Source of the DNA: SAR202 cluster bacterium
GTDB taxonomy: Bacteria > Chloroflexota > Dehalococcoidia > Lucifugimonadales > UBA6952
Reading direction: 5' to 3'
DNA: 62,238 bases
Assembly: GCA_009392515.1 (NCBI GenBank)
Contig: VFGE01000038.1
Span: 1 to 62,238 of the forward strand
This document shows, in pieces, positions 1 to 16,029 of the stretch. Under the pieces are notes generated by a model, which worked only from the letters and a program-made list of their open reading frames with translations, was not told the DNA's origin and did not search any database. Made by a program: the position numbers and the translations under genes. The stretch's first letter is position 1, and every line of letters begins with the position of its first letter.

Positions 1-1401
1 ACCGGAACAATACACACTCTTACAGGTGGCAAAATTTCGAGACTTATAAAATCTGGTGAAATAACGGGGAAAAAGAACGAAATTACCATCATTCATACTT
101 TTGGAGAATTTAAATTCGAGAGAATAATTGTTTGCGGATTAGGAAAACAAGAAAAATTTAACTATGACTCTATTCGTCAAGTTATGGCAATTGCTATGCG
201 GCAATTACGAAAGATCAAGATAAGTAAAGTAGCTACAATTTGTCACGGAGCTGGTATTGCAGGATTAGATCCTAAATTATGTGCCGGAGCTATTACTGAA
301 GGAACACTGTTAGGAACTTATCAATTTTCTAAATATAAATCCTCATCAATTACTGAAACAATTGAAGATTTACAAATAATTGAAAATGACGATCAAAAAG
401 TTCAACTTATTGAAGATGGTATTAATGATGGCTTAATATTAGCAGAATCTGCCATCATTGCTAGAGATTTAGGAAATGAGCCCGGCAATATTCTTCCTCC
501 AAGAGAGCTTGCTGATAGAGCTAAGGGTTTTTCAAGTGAGATTAGTTTAGATTGTACGATTCTTGATAAATCAGAAATTCAAAAATTAGGTATGGGGGGT
601 ATCTTAGGGGTATCTGCAGGAAGCCATGAAGAGCCAAGATTGATAGTAATGGAACATGTTGGTGATCCTAGCTCAGCCGAAAAAATCGCACTATGTGGTA
701 AGGGTATAACTTTTGATACGGGAGGTATTTCTCTAAAGCCCCCACTAAATATGGGAGCTATGAAAGGAGATATGGCGGGTGCAGCAGCAGTAATTGGTGC
801 AATGATTGCTATTAAAAAATTGAATCTTCCTATAAATGTTTTAGGAGTTGTCGCTTCTGCAGAAAATATGCCTGGAGGTGGTGCTATGCGTCCTGGAGAT
901 ATTATTACCATGATGAATGGAAAACATGTTGAAGTTGATAATACCGATGCTGAAGGACGGTTAGTTTTAGGAGACGCTATTGAATACTCCATACAGCAAG
1001 GATGCACATCAATAATTGACGTTGCAACATTAACTGGTGCAGCTGTGGTTGCTTTAGGAAATGATTCTGCTGCAGTAATGGGTAATAACCAGGAGCTTAT
1101 TGATCAACTAATAGCTACTTCTATAATTACTGGTGAACAATATTGGCAACTCCCGATATTTGATAATTATAGAACTCAATTAGATAGTATATATGCAGAT
1201 ATGAAAAATACAGGTGGTCAACCAGCAGGTAGTATTACTGCTGGGAAATTTATTCAAGAATTTGTGGGAGATACACCGTGGATTCATTTGGACATAGCAG
1301 GTATGGCAAGATTAGCATCAACAAAAGATTATAAAGTTGCTGGACACACAGGTTTCGGGGTTAGGTCTTTAGTAAGTTTAATTGCCACACTATCTAGATA
1401 A
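1..1401 (+). CDS. pepA: Leucyl aminopeptidase, M17 family (5' end cut by window edge)
   Basis: Cytosolic dinuclear-metal exopeptidase that removes N-terminal residues from peptides. The open frame runs from the first base of the window with no stop, and the upstream codons look like the M17 N-terminal domain. The ATG at 184 is therefore internal and the true start lies outside the window. 466 residues are visible, against about 490-500 for the family. The catalytic domain shows GKGITFDTGG (metal-binding Lys and Asp) and the signature NTDAEGRLVL near base 940, with the metal-binding Asp and Glu and the catalytic Arg. The stop is 13 nt before mtaB, so the two are probably co-transcribed. Family assignment is firm; substrate preference is unknown. 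Confidence 0.95.
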   Translation, partial: TGTIHTLTGGKISRLIKSGEITGKKNEITIIHTFGEFKFERIIVCGLGKQEKFNYDSIRQVMAIAMRQLRKIKISKVATICHGAGIAGLDPKLCAGAITEGTLLGTYQFSKYKSSSITETIEDLQIIENDDQKVQLIEDGINDGLILAESAIIARDLGNEPGNILPPRELADRAKGFSSEISLDCTILDKSEIQKLGMGGILGVSAGSHEEPRLIVMEHVGDPSSAEKIALCGKGITFDTGGISLKPPLNMGAMKGDMAGAAAVIGAMIAIKKLNLPINVLGVVASAENMPGGGAMRPGDIITMMNGKHVEVDNTDAEGRLVLGDAIEYSIQQGCTSIIDVATLTGAAVVALGNDSAAVMGNNQELIDQLIATSIITGEQYWQLPIFDNYRTQLDSIYADMKNTGGQPAGSITAGKFIQEFVGDTPWIHLDIAGMARLASTKDYKVAGHTGFGVRSLVSLIATLSR

Positions 1402-8962: not shown

Positions 8963-9742
8963 ATGGAAGTCAAAGTTTTTTTTAGACAGGGTTGATTTAC
9001 TTGCGGTAGGACGAAAGAGTATCTTTCGCAAAACAATATTGATTACATTCCTATGGATGTGGCAAAAGATCCACAAGCTTTAAAAGAATTAGACGATTTG
9101 GGGTTAAAGGTTATACCTGTTACAACTATTACTTTAGCTCCTGGTACTAAATCTTTTGGAGATAAAGTAATAATAGGATTTGATCGCGCTTCTTTATCTG
9201 AAGCTTTAAATTTAGGAGAAGTAAGTATAACTGATTCTGATGCTGAGTGGATGTTAGGCAAATTCATGAAAGTACTATCTGCGGCTAGAAGAGCAACATT
9301 GCAAATTCCAGACGATTCTATTGATTGGGTTTCTCCTGAACGTGATAGAACACTTAGACAATTCACCTTTCACCTTTTTGATAGACCTTATATGATGATT
9401 TCTGCATATGAACAAGGTGAATATAAAGCAGAGGACCGTCAAAGGTATATAACTGATGCTTTAAAGACTCAAGATGTACGATCTATAGTTGAATTTGGGG
9501 AGTCGGTAATTAATAGAATTGAGAAATTTTTCGAAAATATTCAATTAGAAGTCCTTAAAACTCCAGTAAAAACTTACATGGGAACTATGCCTTTAAATCA
9601 GTTAATGGATTTGGGGTTAGGGCACTCTGTACATCACTTGAAACAATTATATTTTTACATGAGCAAACTCGATATCGTACCTGACAACCCACTTACCGAA
9701 GAAGACTTTGATGGAATTTCAGTTCCTTCCGAGTTATTCTAA
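8963..9742 (+). CDS. Predicted selenoprotein: glutaredoxin-like domain (UxxC) fused to DinB-fold domain
   Basis: Read from ATG 8963 (GGAG 6 nt upstream) this frame has one TGA at 8993-8995 and then stays open to 9742, giving 259 residues. The N-terminus reads MEVKVFFRQG-U-FTCGRTKEYL, so the TGA sits at the first position of the CxxC redox motif (U11-F-T-C14). The cis-Pro (Pro52 in VIPVTTI) and the closing KVIIGFDRASL segment are typical of glutaredoxin. Residues about 95-250 look like a DinB four-helix domain, with His137 and GHSVHHLKQL (His221, 224, 225) as metal-ligand candidates. TGA is a normal stop elsewhere (rhomboid at 5965, btuC at 36063), so a general recode is unlikely. A shorter start at 9053 would lack the active site. 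Sec rather than sequencing error is inferred, supported by the hairpin that follows. Confidence 0.72.
8996..9031 (+). promoter_or_regulatory. Candidate bacterial SECIS element
   Basis: Sixteen nucleotides after the in-frame TGA lies a perfect 6-bp hairpin, CGAAAG-AGTAT-CTTTCG (9012-9028), with TTG/CAA (9001-9003/9029-9031) able to extend it across an asymmetric bulge. The apical loop AGUAU has G at its second position, as in the published bacterial SECIS consensus, and begins 22 nt after the TGA, inside the usual window. The element lies within the coding sequence, as bacterial SECIS elements do. Confidence 0.65.
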
Positions 9743-10684
9743 GTTCAAATTTTTCTTTATCGATTGTGCTAACAATGGATATTTACAGATAAATCCTGTT
9801 TGAAATAGTTTAGAAGGGTTTATTTTTCGGCTATATAGAACCTCTGCAGACACTCCTCCTAAAATTATTTTTATGGCTAATTTGTATAAGTTACCTAAAA
9901 AAGGAATCCAGGTAGTATTCGGTCTATGTAAATGTTTAGAAAGAGTACTCACAAATTCTTTTTGTCTTACAGGATTTTGAGTGGTTACATTAAATGTACC
10001 AGTGTGTTTATTTTCTATGAAGAAAGCAATGCAATTGTATATATCTTCAATATCCATCCAAGACCACCACTGGTTACCGGTTCCAAATTTTCCTAAAACA
10101 CCAAATCGAGAAGGCAAGAGCAATCTTTTTAACCCGCCACCATCCTTTCCTAAAACAATACCAGCTCTAAGGATTACGTTTCGAATATTATTAGGCAAAT
10201 TTTCAGTAATTGAATTTTCTGACTCTAATACAAGATCAGCTAACCATTCATTACTAATTTCAGAATTTTCATCTAGCTCCTTTTCTCCTGAATCAGGATA
10301 GCAACCAATGCCACTGATCATACCTATAAATGTATTGATTTTATGATCAGACAGAGATAGAGAGTTAATTAAATTGCGAGTTCCTAAAACTCTACTCTCG
10401 TATATTTTATTTTTTTTGGACTTAGTCCATCGTCCAATTATCGGGGGCCCGACCAAAGGTTCTCCAGCTAAGTGAATAAGAATTTCTGAGCTTTCTAAAC
10501 CTTTCAATTCAAATTCGGGATCTTTTGGGTTCCAGGGAATGTAATCAACCTTAGGTATTGGGTTTTTAATATGATTTGGATTTCTTGTAAGAATTACAAC
10601 TTGATGATTATTTTCGACGAATTTAGTAGTTAAAAAATTTCCTATGAATCCTGTTCCGCCTGTTAATGCAATATGCATATTCAT
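9734..10684 (-). CDS. TIGR01777/SDR39U1-family NAD(P)-dependent epimerase-like protein
   Basis: 316-residue extended short-chain dehydrogenase. The Rossmann motif GGTGFIG is at residues 9-15 (MNMHIALTGGTGFIG). A family-typical LIHLAGEPL segment, an SR(V/E)xGT-like ESRVLGTRN segment and a C-terminal DUF1731-like end (KINPSKLFQTGF) follow. Members are often annotated YfcH or cell-division-inhibitor-like, but the chemical role is unsettled. It overlaps the Grx-DinB gene by 9 nt at the convergent ends and is divergent from the B12-binding regulator. Two starts (10684, 10678) are possible; AGGGGAT fits the first. Confidence 0.87.
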   Translation of the reverse strand: MNMHIALTGGTGFIGNFLTTKFVENNHQVVILTRNPNHIKNPIPKVDYIPWNPKDPEFELKGLESSEILIHLAGEPLVGPPIIGRWTKSKKNKIYESRVLGTRNLINSLSLSDHKINTFIGMISGIGCYPDSGEKELDENSEISNEWLADLVLESENSITENLPNNIRNVILRAGIVLGKDGGGLKRLLLPSRFGVLGKFGTGNQWWSWMDIEDIYNCIAFFIENKHTGTFNVTTQNPVRQKEFVSTLSKHLHRPNTTWIPFLGNLYKLAIKIILGGVSAEVLYSRKINPSKLFQTGFICKYPLLAQSIKKNLNLE

Positions 10685-10712
10685 CCCCTAATCTTTACAG
10701 AAAAAGTGATTT

Positions 10713-10766
10713 AATGTAGATTATAAATCACTAATGTTTAATTATATGTTATAATAATTCTACATT
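10713..10766. promoter_or_regulatory. Symmetric divergent promoters with an inverted operator-like repeat
   Basis: For the plus-strand regulator gene, TG-T-TATAAT (10747-10755) is an extended -10 and is followed by TCTACATT (10759-10766) at the expected start of transcription. For the minus-strand SDR gene, TATAAT (10725 down to 10720) is followed directly by CTACATT. AATGTAGA (10713-10720) and TCTACATT (10759-10766) are exact inverted copies. The same half-site therefore sits just after each -10, which suits a shared repressor such as the adjacent B12-binding regulator. Binding is inferred. Confidence 0.5.
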
Positions 10767-10791
10767 GTATTGGATAATTTAATCAAGCTGA

Positions 10792-11697
10792 ATGTCTGAG
10801 GTGCATGTGACATCCCTATCAAATAGTGTCAAAAATAATGAATATAATTTGTCTCGCTATATTACCCTAGCTGTTGAAGGTGAGATTGATCAGGTAAGCG
10901 AACTTGTTGATTCTTATATTAATGATGGCAAAAGTGTTAAAGACGTTTTGTTGAAGATGTTTATGCCTTCATTAGTTAATATTGGTGATTTATGGAAGAA
11001 AGGGTTGTTAAATATAGCAGAGGAGCATTTAGCTGTAACTGTTACCCTCTCTCAAATTGAGAGATTAACACAATCGCTAGTTCCAAATGGAGAAATTATT
11101 GGAACTGCTGCTATATGCACGCCAGTTGGGGAGAAACATTTTATAGGTCCTAAGGTTGTTTCTGAATTAATGAGACTTTCAGGTTGGAATGTGCACTTTC
11201 TGGGTACAGAAATGCCCCCAGAGGATCTCATACAATTTCTTGGAGAAAAAGAAATTGATTTATTAGTATTATCAATAACTTTGGAAGAAAACCTACCTGC
11301 TGTTTTAGAAATAGTCAAAGCGGTAAAATCAATGGATAAATCTGTAGTAACTATGCTTGGTGGCTCCGGAGTTGATAATATAGATGAAAACTTAATAAGC
11401 GATGTGGATATAATATCATCTGATGTTTCAAGCGCTATAATCGAAGCTTCACGCTTGGTTTCATCAACTACTTTAAACGGTAATTTAGAAGACTATCTTT
11501 CTTTTATTGGTGAGAAAGTCAAAAGAACGAGAATATTAAAGGGCTGGAATCAGCAAAAACTTGCTGACGAATCTGGTCTCGACAGAACTTATATAAGTTC
11601 TGTCGAAAATGGGAAACAAAATCTAACATTAGGTGTGCTTTTGCGAATTGGCAATGCATTTGGTATAGATATACAAACGTTAATAAATCGTGAATAA
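10792..11697 (+). CDS. CarH-like cobalamin-binding regulator with C-terminal XRE helix-turn-helix
   Basis: 301-residue putative B12-sensing transcription regulator. Residues about 18-100 are a helical B12 cap domain containing W68-x9-E78-H79, the arrangement found in CarH photoreceptors. Residues about 101-225 are a Rossmann B12-binding domain with E114-x-H116-x-x-G119, where His116 is the candidate lower cobalt ligand, followed by LVLSITLEENLPAV. Residues about 242-298 form a Cro/C1-type helix-turn-helix (QQKLADESGLDRTYISSVENG). Known CarH/LitR proteins place a MerR-type domain first, so both the position and the fold of the DNA-binding part differ. It is divergent from the SDR gene and 54 nt upstream of an ABC transporter operon. 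Light sensing is inferred; a non-light B12 sensor is the alternative. Confidence 0.85.
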   Translation: MSEVHVTSLSNSVKNNEYNLSRYITLAVEGEIDQVSELVDSYINDGKSVKDVLLKMFMPSLVNIGDLWKKGLLNIAEEHLAVTVTLSQIERLTQSLVPNGEIIGTAAICTPVGEKHFIGPKVVSELMRLSGWNVHFLGTEMPPEDLIQFLGEKEIDLLVLSITLEENLPAVLEIVKAVKSMDKSVVTMLGGSGVDNIDENLISDVDIISSDVSSAIIEASRLVSSTTLNGNLEDYLSFIGEKVKRTRILKGWNQQKLADESGLDRTYISSVENGKQNLTLGVLLRIGNAFGIDIQTLINRE

Positions 11698-11750: not shown

Positions 11751-12440
11751 GTGTCTAATAATGAAATAATTGTTGCTAACAATGTCTACAAAACTTATCA
11801 ATCCAAAGATGTAAAAGTCGAGGCGCTTAAAGGTGTTTCGTTATCCGTTAATCAAGGTGAAATCGTTACCATTATGGGGCCTAGTGGTTGTGGCAAAACT
11901 ACATTGTTAAATTGTCTTTCTGGACTTGATGAAATAGATTCAGGAGAAATTATCATAAGAGACTCAGATATAACTCAGATGTCGGATAACCAGCTGACAA
12001 ATTTCAGGGGCAAAAATATGGGGTTTGTATTTCAAGCATATAATTTATTACCAGTGTTAACTGCGCGTGAAAATGTCGAATTACCTTTAGTATTAGCTGG
12101 CACTTCACAGAGTAAGTCCAAAAATATAGCCGAAGATCGCCTTGATTTAGTTGGACTTGCCGATCGATATACTCATTTACCTACTGAATTATCTGGAGGA
12201 GAACAACAAAGAGTTGCAATAGCTAGGGCATTTGCAAACGATCCTGCCATCATATGGGCTGATGAATTGACAGGTAATTTAGATTCTAAGACACAAGATG
12301 AAGTAATAGATTTAATAAGAAAAATGAACAAAGAAAACAATCAGACTTTTATTATTGTTACTCACTCTGATGAGGTTGGTTCTATTGGCCATAGAACTAT
12401 ACGTATGAGAGATGGATTAATTGAAGATGATGGAAAATAG
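11751..12440 (+). CDS. ABC transporter ATP-binding protein, LolD/MacB type
   Basis: 229-residue ATPase of the family that pairs with FtsX-type permeases. It shows Walker A GPSGCGKTT, the Q-loop in FVFQAYNLLPVL, the signature LSGGEQQR, Walker B AIIWADE and a switch His in VTHSDE. After Walker B it reads ADELTGNLD where ADEPTGNLD is usual, a single Pro to Leu change of unknown effect. The start is GTG with GAGGA upstream. The permease follows 10 nt later. Such systems act as mechanotransmission or lipoprotein/toxin extrusion machines rather than classic importers. Confidence 0.93.
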   Translation: MSNNEIIVANNVYKTYQSKDVKVEALKGVSLSVNQGEIVTIMGPSGCGKTTLLNCLSGLDEIDSGEIIIRDSDITQMSDNQLTNFRGKNMGFVFQAYNLLPVLTARENVELPLVLAGTSQSKSKNIAEDRLDLVGLADRYTHLPTELSGGEQQRVAIARAFANDPAIIWADELTGNLDSKTQDEVIDLIRKMNKENNQTFIIVTHSDEVGSIGHRTIRMRDGLIEDDGK

Positions 12441-12450
12441 AGACTTATAA

Positions 12451-15400
12451 ATGGAAGAGTTATTTGGCGTAGATATAGACATATTAGCTGGTGTATCAAC
12501 TAGTATAATGATAGTAGCTGTATTAATAGTTGCTGTGCTGGGATTCAGGAATAAGTTACTAGTAAAAATGGCAATTAGGAATATTCCACGTAGACCAGCT
12601 CAATCAGTAGTTATCATGTTTGGTCTAACTTTAAGTACAGCAATAATTTGTGCGGCTTTAAGTATAGGTGATACCGTTACAACTTCAATTCGGTACGCTG
12701 TTCTTCAAGGGTTGGGTAATTCAGATATATACATAACTTCAACGCAATCATCTGTTTTTGGGGACAATTACCTTGATAAAGAAGATTTCAATACAATCAA
12801 GTCTAAGACAATTCAATACGATGAAATTGATGGTTTTGCCCCATTTATTCGCGAAGATTTTTCTGTATATCTTCCTGCAACAGAAAAAACAAATTCACAA
12901 ACATTAATTCTTGGACTGGATAAAGAATACTTAAGTGGATTTGGGGATATTAATCTACCTGATGGAAACACTTATTCTCTAGCTCAATTAGGTGAAGGAG
13001 AAGTTGTCATATCTGGTGCTCTTTCCTCAAAAATAGATGCTGAAGTTGGTGACATATTAAATATAGTAACACCTACAGGTAAATATCCTTTTGTGATAAC
13101 TGTAGTTGCTGCAAGAGGAAATCTTGCTGCATCTGATCCAAGAGTCCTTATGAACATATCAGAGCTCCAAACAATACTCAATAGACCCGATCAATTTAAT
13201 AATATCGCAATTTCTACGACTGGTACTCAAGACGAGGGTATTCAAAGATCAAAGGAATTGAGTGAAAAATTGTATTTAGCTTTTTCAAATAAAGAGATGG
13301 CTGCTGATATATTTAATATTCTTTCAACAACTGAAGTAACTGACTCTCTGAGCAAATATATTTTGGATAATGAAAATTTACCTCAGAATATAAAAGATGA
13401 TATTGATAGTTTAACTACGGAACTAGATTCAGGCACAATGAGTGATGAATTTATAAAATTAATGGGGGATCAAACAAATCGTGGGGTAGTTTTAGGTGCG
13501 TTAGAAGATGCAAAACTAACTAATGAAATACAGTCTGTTGGGCCATTATTATACACATTTCAAGATTATAATGTAGATCCTATTAAATATAGATTAAATG
13601 AATTAGCTAATACAGTCGGAACATCTATAACTACATTTTTTAGTATTTTTGGAACGTATTCTATAACAGTAGGTTTATTATTAATATTTTTAGTGTTTAT
13701 TTTACTTGCAGCTTCGAGAAGCACAGAGATGGGAATATCCCGGGCTATAGGTATGAAGAGAACTCATCTCACTCAGATGTTTACTTTTGAAGGAACAGCA
13801 TATGCTTTAGCTGCAGCATCTCTTGGTACACTTATCGGGGTTCTAGCTAGTTATTCTTTAGTATCGATTGGATTATCCGCCCTTAGTAGTGAGGATGACG
13901 GATTTGTGATCAAATATTCCTTAAATATAAGAGCATTAGCCTTAGCATTTTCATCTGGAATGTTATTAACATTTATAACTGTTGTGATTTCCTCTTATCG
14001 TGTCAGTAAGCTCAACATTGTAGTAGCTATTAGGAACTTACCTGAACAGTTTGCAAAAGATAAGCAAATATCAACCAAAACCTTATTCTTGAGTTCAATT
14101 AAATGGTTACTAGGACCAATATATCTTGCACTTATTATGCTTCGTGACAGAAGAGTACTTACAATGACTAATGTCATCTTAGGTTTGATTTGGATTGGAT
14201 TAATCTCTTCGGTTGTAGCTCCTGTTTTACAAGATACAACTGTGGCAGCTCAAGCAGTACAAAGTGGAATTTTTTTATGGTTATTGGTTACATTATGGAA
14301 ATTACTCACTATTATATTGAGATTCTTTAAAACCGGTTGGCCACTGTTAATTTTAGGTCCAATTGTACTGTTCACAGTTTTTGGATTAGAAAATGCACCC
14401 GTGTACAAGGATGCTGCATTATTCGGTTCAGGAATTAGCTTAACATTATTAGGTATAGGACTAACCATAAGATGGATGTTAAATTACACATCTTTACTTC
14501 CTAGAGTTATAGACAGGTTATCAGCAAGTATCACAGGTTTAACCTTGGCAATCTTCTGGGGTATGCCTTTCGATACACTGGAGAGTATAACTGGGAAACT
14601 GGAAGATTCTCCACTTACATTTGTATTGCCTGGTCTTTGGTTGGTGGTTTCAGTTATGACAGTTATCATGTACAACGCTGAAATTATAGTCTGGGTAGGC
14701 AACAAAACATTTGGAGTTATCAGTAGTTTTAAAGCAGTATTTAAGATTTCTGTTGCTTATCCTATGGCATCTCGTTTTCGTACTGGTCTAACAGTTACTA
14801 TGTTTGCATTAGTAATTTTTACCTTAGTAATATTCGCTACCTTAAATAACCTTGGAAATGAGATACAAGATAATCCAGAAAGAGTTAGTGGCGGATATGA
14901 GATCAGGGCAAATATTAATAGAGAAACTCCTATTGAAAATGTTTATACCACGATAAACAATTCTGATATAGTTGTGTCTTCAGATTTCGAAGTTATAGCA
15001 AGTCAAACAAACTTTAGAGCGCAAGCTCGCCAAGAAGGTACAGATAATTCTAGATTTAAAAATGCTTCTATAAAAGCTCTTGATAATCCCTATTTGGAAA
15101 CAAATCTATTGCAAATTACTCACTATGATCCAGCCTATGGTACTGATTCTAGAGCAATTTGGAATGCTTTAGCTAATGATTCAACTCTAGCTTTGATACG
15201 TGGCGATGCTTTATCAACAGCGAATCAAGGTGGCCCAGGTGCTCAATCTTCAGACGCTTTTAGATTAGATGGTGTAGAAGCTGCTGAACAAGGAGAAATG
15301 ACTAGTCAATTTATTGAATTACAATTACCTTTGGGCCAAGGTGTTTATGGAGATGTCGTCAAACGAAGAGTTATAGGAGTAGTAGATCCAATAGCTGGTG

Positions 15401-16029
15401 GATTAGATGGATTTGAGGGACAAGGTAGTTCAACTATTTATACCAATACCAAAATAGTGCAAGACATTTCACCAATTGATATCACGCCAAATGTTTATCG
15501 ATTTAAATTAACTGATCCTTCTCAAGATGAGGAAATAGCAAGAAAACTCGAAACTGTTTTCTTAGAAAATTCTATGCAAGCGACAGCAATTGTTACCCAA
15601 CTTGCCGAGCAACGAGAACAGGATGATGCGTTTAATCTTCTATTTCAAGGCTTTCAAGGCTTAGGTCTAATAGTAGGAGTAGCAGCTTTAGGTGTTATAT
15701 CTTTTAGGGCAGTGGTTGAACGACGAAGAGTTATTGGAATGATGAAAGCAATGGGCTATTCACGCAAAATGATACAATATCAATTTCTACTCGAATCAGC
15801 GGTTATAGCGATACTAGGTTCAATCGTAGGAATAGGTTTGGGCACTCTAGTTTCTTGGAATATAGTTCAAGAAATTAGAAAAACCGTAGAAGATTTAACA
15901 TTTGAAATGCCATGGATTAACCTTATTGGAATTACAACAATTACTGTTTTATTTGCCCTTATTGCAACGTGGGTCCCTGCTAGACAAGCTTCAAAAATCT
16001 ATCCTGCCGAAGCTCTAACTTATGAATAG
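12451..16029 (+). CDS. Large FtsX/MacB-type ABC permease
   Basis: 1192-residue integral membrane protein. An N-terminal membrane segment (about 15-32) is followed by a second at the IRNIPRRPAQSVV motif. A MacB-like extracytoplasmic domain (about 75-385) and a first FtsX transmembrane triplet (about 390-530) come next. Residues about 560-745 hold roughly six extra hydrophobic segments. Then comes a second extracytoplasmic domain (about 790-1060) and a second FtsX triplet ending with WVPARQASKIYPAEAL. The double-FtsX layout means one polypeptide can pair with two ATPase copies. The cargo is unknown. Confidence 0.9.
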   Translation: MEELFGVDIDILAGVSTSIMIVAVLIVAVLGFRNKLLVKMAIRNIPRRPAQSVVIMFGLTLSTAIICAALSIGDTVTTSIRYAVLQGLGNSDIYITSTQSSVFGDNYLDKEDFNTIKSKTIQYDEIDGFAPFIREDFSVYLPATEKTNSQTLILGLDKEYLSGFGDINLPDGNTYSLAQLGEGEVVISGALSSKIDAEVGDILNIVTPTGKYPFVITVVAARGNLAASDPRVLMNISELQTILNRPDQFNNIAISTTGTQDEGIQRSKELSEKLYLAFSNKEMAADIFNILSTTEVTDSLSKYILDNENLPQNIKDDIDSLTTELDSGTMSDEFIKLMGDQTNRGVVLGALEDAKLTNEIQSVGPLLYTFQDYNVDPIKYRLNELANTVGTSITTFFSIFGTYSITVGLLLIFLVFILLAASRSTEMGISRAIGMKRTHLTQMFTFEGTAYALAAASLGTLIGVLASYSLVSIGLSALSSEDDGFVIKYSLNIRALALAFSSGMLLTFITVVISSYRVSKLNIVVAIRNLPEQFAKDKQISTKTLFLSSIKWLLGPIYLALIMLRDRRVLTMTNVILGLIWIGLISSVVAPVLQDTTVAAQAVQSGIFLWLLVTLWKLLTIILRFFKTGWPLLILGPIVLFTVFGLENAPVYKDAALFGSGISLTLLGIGLTIRWMLNYTSLLPRVIDRLSASITGLTLAIFWGMPFDTLESITGKLEDSPLTFVLPGLWLVVSVMTVIMYNAEIIVWVGNKTFGVISSFKAVFKISVAYPMASRFRTGLTVTMFALVIFTLVIFATLNNLGNEIQDNPERVSGGYEIRANINRETPIENVYTTINNSDIVVSSDFEVIASQTNFRAQARQEGTDNSRFKNASIKALDNPYLETNLLQITHYDPAYGTDSRAIWNALANDSTLALIRGDALSTANQGGPGAQSSDAFRLDGVEAAEQGEMTSQFIELQLPLGQGVYGDVVKRRVIGVVDPIAGGLDGFEGQGSSTIYTNTKIVQDISPIDITPNVYRFKLTDPSQDEEIARKLETVFLENSMQATAIVTQLAEQREQDDAFNLLFQGFQGLGLIVGVAALGVISFRAVVERRRVIGMMKAMGYSRKMIQYQFLLESAVIAILGSIVGIGLGTLVSWNIVQEIRKTVEDLTFEMPWINLIGITTITVLFALIATWVPARQASKIYPAEALTYE

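Follow-up and report, generated by a model that had tools for sequence, protein, structure and literature searches.

A candidate CarH-type cobalamin photoreceptor with a C-terminal Cro/C1 DNA-binding domain in SAR202 bacteria and their relatives

The regulator gene described here lies in a 62,238-nucleotide stretch of DNA from a SAR202 cluster bacterium (contig VFGE01000038.1, hereafter the window) and encodes a protein in which a B12-binding cap and a B12-binding Rossmann domain are followed by a Cro/C1-type (XRE) DNA-binding domain (Table 1). All three domains score above the curated Pfam cut-offs, and the HTH_3 match (48.3 bits against a cut-off of 23) assigns the DNA-binding domain to the Cro/C1 (XRE) type, confirming the helix-turn-helix that the original prediction had placed at the C-terminus. 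In the AlphaFold model (mean pLDDT 91.9) the XRE helix bundle occupies the part of the protein that follows the B12 domain, and neither Pfam nor the model revealed a further domain within the 301 residues. Membership in the photocobilins was rejected, as neither method revealed the adjacent bilin-binding globin-like domain. An ABC ATPase and a large permease (window positions 11751-16029), beginning 54 bp past the regulator gene, may be co-transcribed with it, and the same order of regulator, ABC ATPase and permease is found in a sister genome.

Table 1. Features of the regulator locus, in coordinates of the window.
Feature	Position	Residues	Strand	Remarks
TIGR01777 (YfcH/ThyD-like) oxidoreductase gene, divergent	9734..10684		-	Probable target; 234.9 bits, cut-off 207
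Sigma-70-like promoter, TTTACA-17-TAGATT	10694..10722		+	Weak consensus match; toward regulator gene, overlaps predicted operator 1
Predicted operator 1, ATGTAGATTATAAATCACTA	10714..10733		.	Top site of the whole window, full model
Predicted operator 2, ATGTTATAATAATTCTACAT	10746..10765		.	Weaker; 32 bp from predicted operator 1
Sigma-70-like promoter, TTGATT-18-TAGAAT	10757..10786		-	Weak consensus match; toward divergent oxidoreductase, overlaps predicted operator 2
B12-XRE regulator gene	10792..11697	1-301	+	301 aa; ATG start, stop codon included
B12 cap (four-helix bundle, B12-binding_2, PF02607)	10855..11043	22-84	+	Pfam E 7e-10
Wx9EH adenosyl-capping motif, WKKGLLNIAEEH	10993..11028	68-79	+	Motif definition: PMC9304148, PMC8156234
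B12-binding Rossmann domain (PF02310)	11119..11397	110-202	+	Pfam E 4e-14
ExHxxG	11131..11148	114-119	+	Includes predicted lower axial ligand His116
Cro/C1 (XRE, HTH_3) DNA-binding domain	11521..11679	244-296	+	Pfam E 1e-12

CarH homologues are defined by a Wx9EH motif in the cap and a D/ExHx2G/P-x41-SxT/V-x22-27-GG motif in the Rossmann domain (PMC9304148; PMC8156234), the former being characteristic of B12 domains that act as photoreceptors (PMC8156234; PMC11796333). The regulator contains both: W68-x9-E78-H79 and E114-x-H116-x-x-G119 are found exactly where they had been predicted, and the full B12-binding motif E114-H116-G119-x41-S161-x-T163-x26-GG extends over residues 114-191 with spacers of 41 and 26, in agreement with the classic form. 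All four elements of the GxxW/EH/GxxH/GxxxP signature (SignatureFinder), which was used to find new light-responsive B12 proteins that were then tested in the laboratory (PMC11796333), are likewise present (G65-W68, E78-H79, G113-H116 and G138-P142). All 24 CarH-like reference domains contain Wx9EH (two of them proved to belong to the B12-XRE family), versus none of 14 corrinoid-methyltransferase and MetH domains. The earlier claim that both motifs shape the adenosyl-side pocket holds for Wx9EH but not for ExHxxG, which provides the lower axial histidine, is a motif that MetH-type B12 domains have as well, and is neither on the adenosyl side nor specific to CarH. At the position of TtCarH His132, which is next to the tryptophan and becomes the upper cobalt ligand after illumination, the window regulator has Lys69, and 41 of 55 relatives have histidine. 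CtMerR carries arginine at the equivalent position, yet is light-responsive (PMC11796333). Lys69 suggests that the window regulator does not adopt the bis-His light state of TtCarH but one like that of CtMerR.

Proteins with this architecture are widespread. Among 393 genomes of the same class we recovered 27 further full-length copies in 24 other genomes, and when one genome per species was scanned with a nine-sequence alignment, nearly 60 full-length matches were obtained. The search for B12-binding domains followed by HTH_3 that had been proposed at the outset thus yielded 69 (about 70) non-redundant family loci over both searches, with the domain order preserved in the full-length relatives. 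The family extends over SAR202/Dehalococcoidia, Caldilineaceae, other Chloroflexota, Fraserbacteria, Fimbriimonadales, Rokubacteria and deltaproteobacterial MAGs, and one member is encoded on the complete chromosome of Uabimicrobium amorphum; the closest named relative of the window gene comes from a Station ALOHA Dehalococcoidia MAG (95% identity). In an alignment of 55 full-length members H79 and H116 are invariant, and W68 and E78 are retained in 53 and 54 sequences, respectively, a degree of conservation that argues against a chance occurrence of the motifs. Residue 114 varies (31 D, 21 E, 3 N), and the complete GxxW/EH/GxxH/GxxxP set is found in 43 of the 55, the window regulator among them. 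The relatives also share an LDRTYISxVExGKQN block in the recognition region of the XRE domain.

In a maximum-likelihood tree of B12 domains, the B12-XRE proteins form a single clade (support 97/95) and share one side of a branch (support 96/86) with MerR-type CarH, CtMerR and other CarH-like proteins, MetH and corrinoid proteins lying opposite; photocobilin, represented by a partial sequence, fell on the non-CarH side on a long branch, and its placement is unsure. The window regulator did not fall among the B12 domains of methionine synthases or methyltransferases, a placement that had been named in advance as speaking against a CarH-like regulator. Against the NCBIfam CarH equivalog the window regulator scores 58.5 bits, below the 400-bit cut-off, which says little because none of 151 Chloroflexota genomes exceeds this cut-off either. 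Comparison of the AlphaFold model with known structures, which the original prediction had proposed for CarH, gave a Z score of about 20 for CarH and placed photoreceptors at the head of the list (photocobilin, 25.7; CtMerR, 22.6), but the score of MetH (21.8) is also high, so that fold alone does not discriminate. A corrinoid-methyltransferase or MetH-type B12 protein that had acquired its XRE domain by chance, with no dedicated regulatory role, would share this fold, and NCBIfam corrinoid models match the regulator at up to 48 bits. Such an origin was rejected, being already contradicted by the position in the tree and by the absence of Wx9EH from the methyltransferase and MetH families, and with the same fusion recurring in about 70 relatives with a common operator (see below) we regard it as highly improbable. 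The branch of the window regulator is long (1.64), which, like the replacement of the light-state ligand histidine by lysine and the precedent of CarA from Myxococcus (PMC9304148), would be compatible with a cobalamin-independent or degenerate family member whose XRE domain regulates via redox or a partner protein. CarA, however, is without the tryptophan of Wx9EH, whereas W68, E78, H79, H116 and S161-T163-GG are intact in the window regulator, and we consider degeneration quite unlikely.

The genomic surroundings of the family bear on what the B12 domain might sense. A cluster made up of TIGR01777 proteins, SRPBCC-like proteins of about 160 aa (a label that is our reading of the sequences, which matched no family model) and long proteins joining both recurs in 24 of the 69 loci and is the immediate neighbour of the regulator in 18. 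DNA photolyase genes are found in the flanks of eight of the 69 loci, including both copies in Candidatus Lucifugimonas marina, and five of ten photolyase genes in member genomes lie no more than 7 kb from the regulator, where genome sizes of 1.2-3.1 Mb would put chance proximity at about 1% per photolyase gene. A photolyase gene is also present in the window's own genome, unlinked to the regulator. Genes for GTP cyclohydrolase I (FolE), DUF2867 and amine-oxidase-type proteins recur beside the regulator in some loci, and together with photolyase they match the regulon of Pseudomonas class II LitR, in which photolyase (phrB), an SDR, an FAD oxidoreductase and folE are under light control (PMC9758184). 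Members of the L. marina group die or cease to grow under light (PMC10444878). L. marina has two regulator copies, each accompanied by photolyase, FolE, fasciclin and SRPBCC-like genes, so that an isolate which light inhibits carries a light-response cluster in near duplicate. At eight family loci a long TIGR01777 protein beside the regulator is encoded divergently from a conserved pair of unannotated proteins (about 361 and 179 aa), and those of the pair that were scanned matched no Pfam or NCBIfam model. If AdoCbl or another cobalamin were itself the signal, the regulator tuning metabolism to supply and light lability being incidental, the same pocket would serve; the window's own genome does encode a cobalamin adenosyltransferase (split across two contig ends), and a photolyase was not detected in 16 of the 25 member genomes. 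This reading is unlikely in our view, as the recurrent neighbour clusters that were annotated (a subset) include no cobalamin uptake or biosynthesis genes and resemble light-response regulons instead, and Wx9EH marks photoreceptive domains (PMC8156234; PMC11796333).

Because the XRE recognition region is conserved, we sought a DNA site shared by the family. From 34 dereplicated upstream regions we obtained a palindromic 20-bp motif, TGTnGAnTATAnTCnACA, with a log-likelihood of 117 compared to 33-37 for shuffled sequences. Sites scoring at least 13 bits number 57 in the 19 kb that precede family genes versus 28 in 811 kb of flanking sequence, an 87-fold enrichment, and many of these 28 precede genes next to the regulator that encode fasciclin or MMPL proteins or belong to the TIGR01777/SRPBCC cluster. 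A predicted operator site is present at 26 of the 34 dereplicated loci (2.2 expected from shuffles), and the two best sites of a locus are 28-33 bp apart in 17 of 29 pairs, about three helical turns, a distance that would fit an oligomer bridging two palindromes. Both predicted operators of the window are located in the 107-bp intergenic region between the regulator gene and the divergent TIGR01777 oxidoreductase gene, and with a motif trained without the window they still rank second and 13th among 62,219 positions, although they score below those of the relatives and the core of operator 2 is displaced. Sigma-70-like promoters number three, against 1.8 expected in shuffles.

A degenerate-pattern scan of the window's own genome returned hardly more matches than its reversed-pattern control (167 versus 139 at up to three mismatches), no strong operator site was found near the unlinked photolyases of five genomes, including the window's own, and operons in which the regulator follows a long TIGR01777 protein have no strong site at their head except at one locus (L111), with weak sites at three others. 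The two best pattern sites of the window's own genome (one and two mismatches, 41 bp apart) occur outside the window, at positions 2607-2665 of locus L180 (contig C6), between a gene for an MFS transporter of the lactate/oxalate type and one for a 112-aa protein without family assignment, a possible further target. At four loci operator-like sites precede fasciclin-domain genes adjoining the regulator, which suggests that a surface/adhesion protein is part of the regulon. The half-site TCnACA fits the TnnACA of the direct repeats bound by MerR-type CarH; the DNA-binding domains are unrelated, and the resemblance may be coincidence.

Based on domain order, motifs, conservation, clade, operator motif and positions, light-gene neighbours and the adenosyltransferase, all of them sequence-level evidence, we conclude with a probability of roughly 0.75 that the regulator is a CarH-type cobalamin photoreceptor with a C-terminal Cro/C1 output, acting as an AdoCbl-dependent, light-released repressor. 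AdoCbl binding, the change in oligomeric state, the light response and repression rather than activation we infer by analogy with CarH, which in the dark sits on its operator as an AdoCbl-bound oligomer and is released by photolysis (PMC8156234). In the dark, AdoCbl would be held between the cap and the Rossmann domain; His116 would serve as its lower ligand, W68, E78 and H79 would surround the adenosyl group, and the bound cofactor would promote an oligomer whose paired XRE domains may grip two TGTnGAnTATAnTCnACA palindromes about three helical turns apart. Positioned over the divergent promoters, this oligomer would repress the regulator gene itself and the TIGR01777 oxidoreductase gene until light cleaves the cobalt-carbon bond, upon which the oligomer would dissociate and the promoters open. 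Lys69 in place of His132, the weaker operators of the window, the unlinked photolyase of its genome, the 16 of 25 member genomes in which no photolyase was detected and the likeness to the MetH fold are points against this interpretation.

The original prediction had envisaged a new class of light- or B12-gated repressor. Tree, fold, operator and light-gene neighbours argue for such a repressor. Light-responsive B12 domains have been stated, in general terms, to be fused to HTH and other domains at either end (PMC11796333), so that C-terminal HTH fusions are not new in principle, and the sensor principle is known. A literature search, which was not exhaustive, found neither the B12 plus Cro/C1 architecture nor its operator or regulon described. 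We think it fairly likely that the family constitutes a multi-phylum group of cobalamin photoreceptor repressors that combine a CarH-type sensor with a C-terminal Cro/C1 domain and paired palindromes, and that may be behind the way SAR202, among them the cultured, light-inhibited Lucifugimonas, responds to light. The characterised B12 photoreceptor repressors that we found described are all of the MerR type, and a second, independent DNA-binding output would show that the sensor is modular, coupling a B12 oligomer that collapses in light to a mode of DNA binding unlike the direct repeats of CarH. If the interpretation is correct, gene control in the laboratory would gain a simple repressor that green light releases, and there would be a specific candidate for how SAR202 senses light. 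These bacteria are abundant in the ocean, and light inhibits or kills their cultured members.

Among known systems, Pseudomonas class II LitR (PplR/PmlR) resembles the family in its targets, photolyase, SDR, FAD oxidoreductase and folE corresponding to the neighbour types seen here (PMC9758184), but these regulators are of the MerR type, are thought not to bind B12 and receive their signal from a LOV protein. The photocobilins (SasPcob, 8J2W; AbDPcob, 8J2Y) provide the closest structure (Z 25.7) and also have a domain C-terminal to the B12 domain, which is, however, a bilin-binding globin-like domain that the window regulator does not have. CtMerR from Chloracidobacterium thermophilum (PDB 8JBS) has a validated light-responsive B12 domain of similar fold (Z 22.6) with a basic residue after the tryptophan (arginine, Lys69 here), but a MerR DNA-binding domain. 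With CarH/LitR, exemplified by TtCarH, the window regulator has in common the Wx9EH cap, the full B12 motif, the lower axial histidine, the fold (Z about 20), putative light-gene targets and putative autoregulation. The two fall into separate clades and differ in having His132 or Lys69, respectively, and CarH/LitR proteins bind 11-bp direct repeats (nnnnTnnACAn) through an N-terminal MerR domain, whereas the window regulator has no MerR match and a C-terminal Cro/C1 domain, the predicted operator of its family being a 20-bp palindrome.
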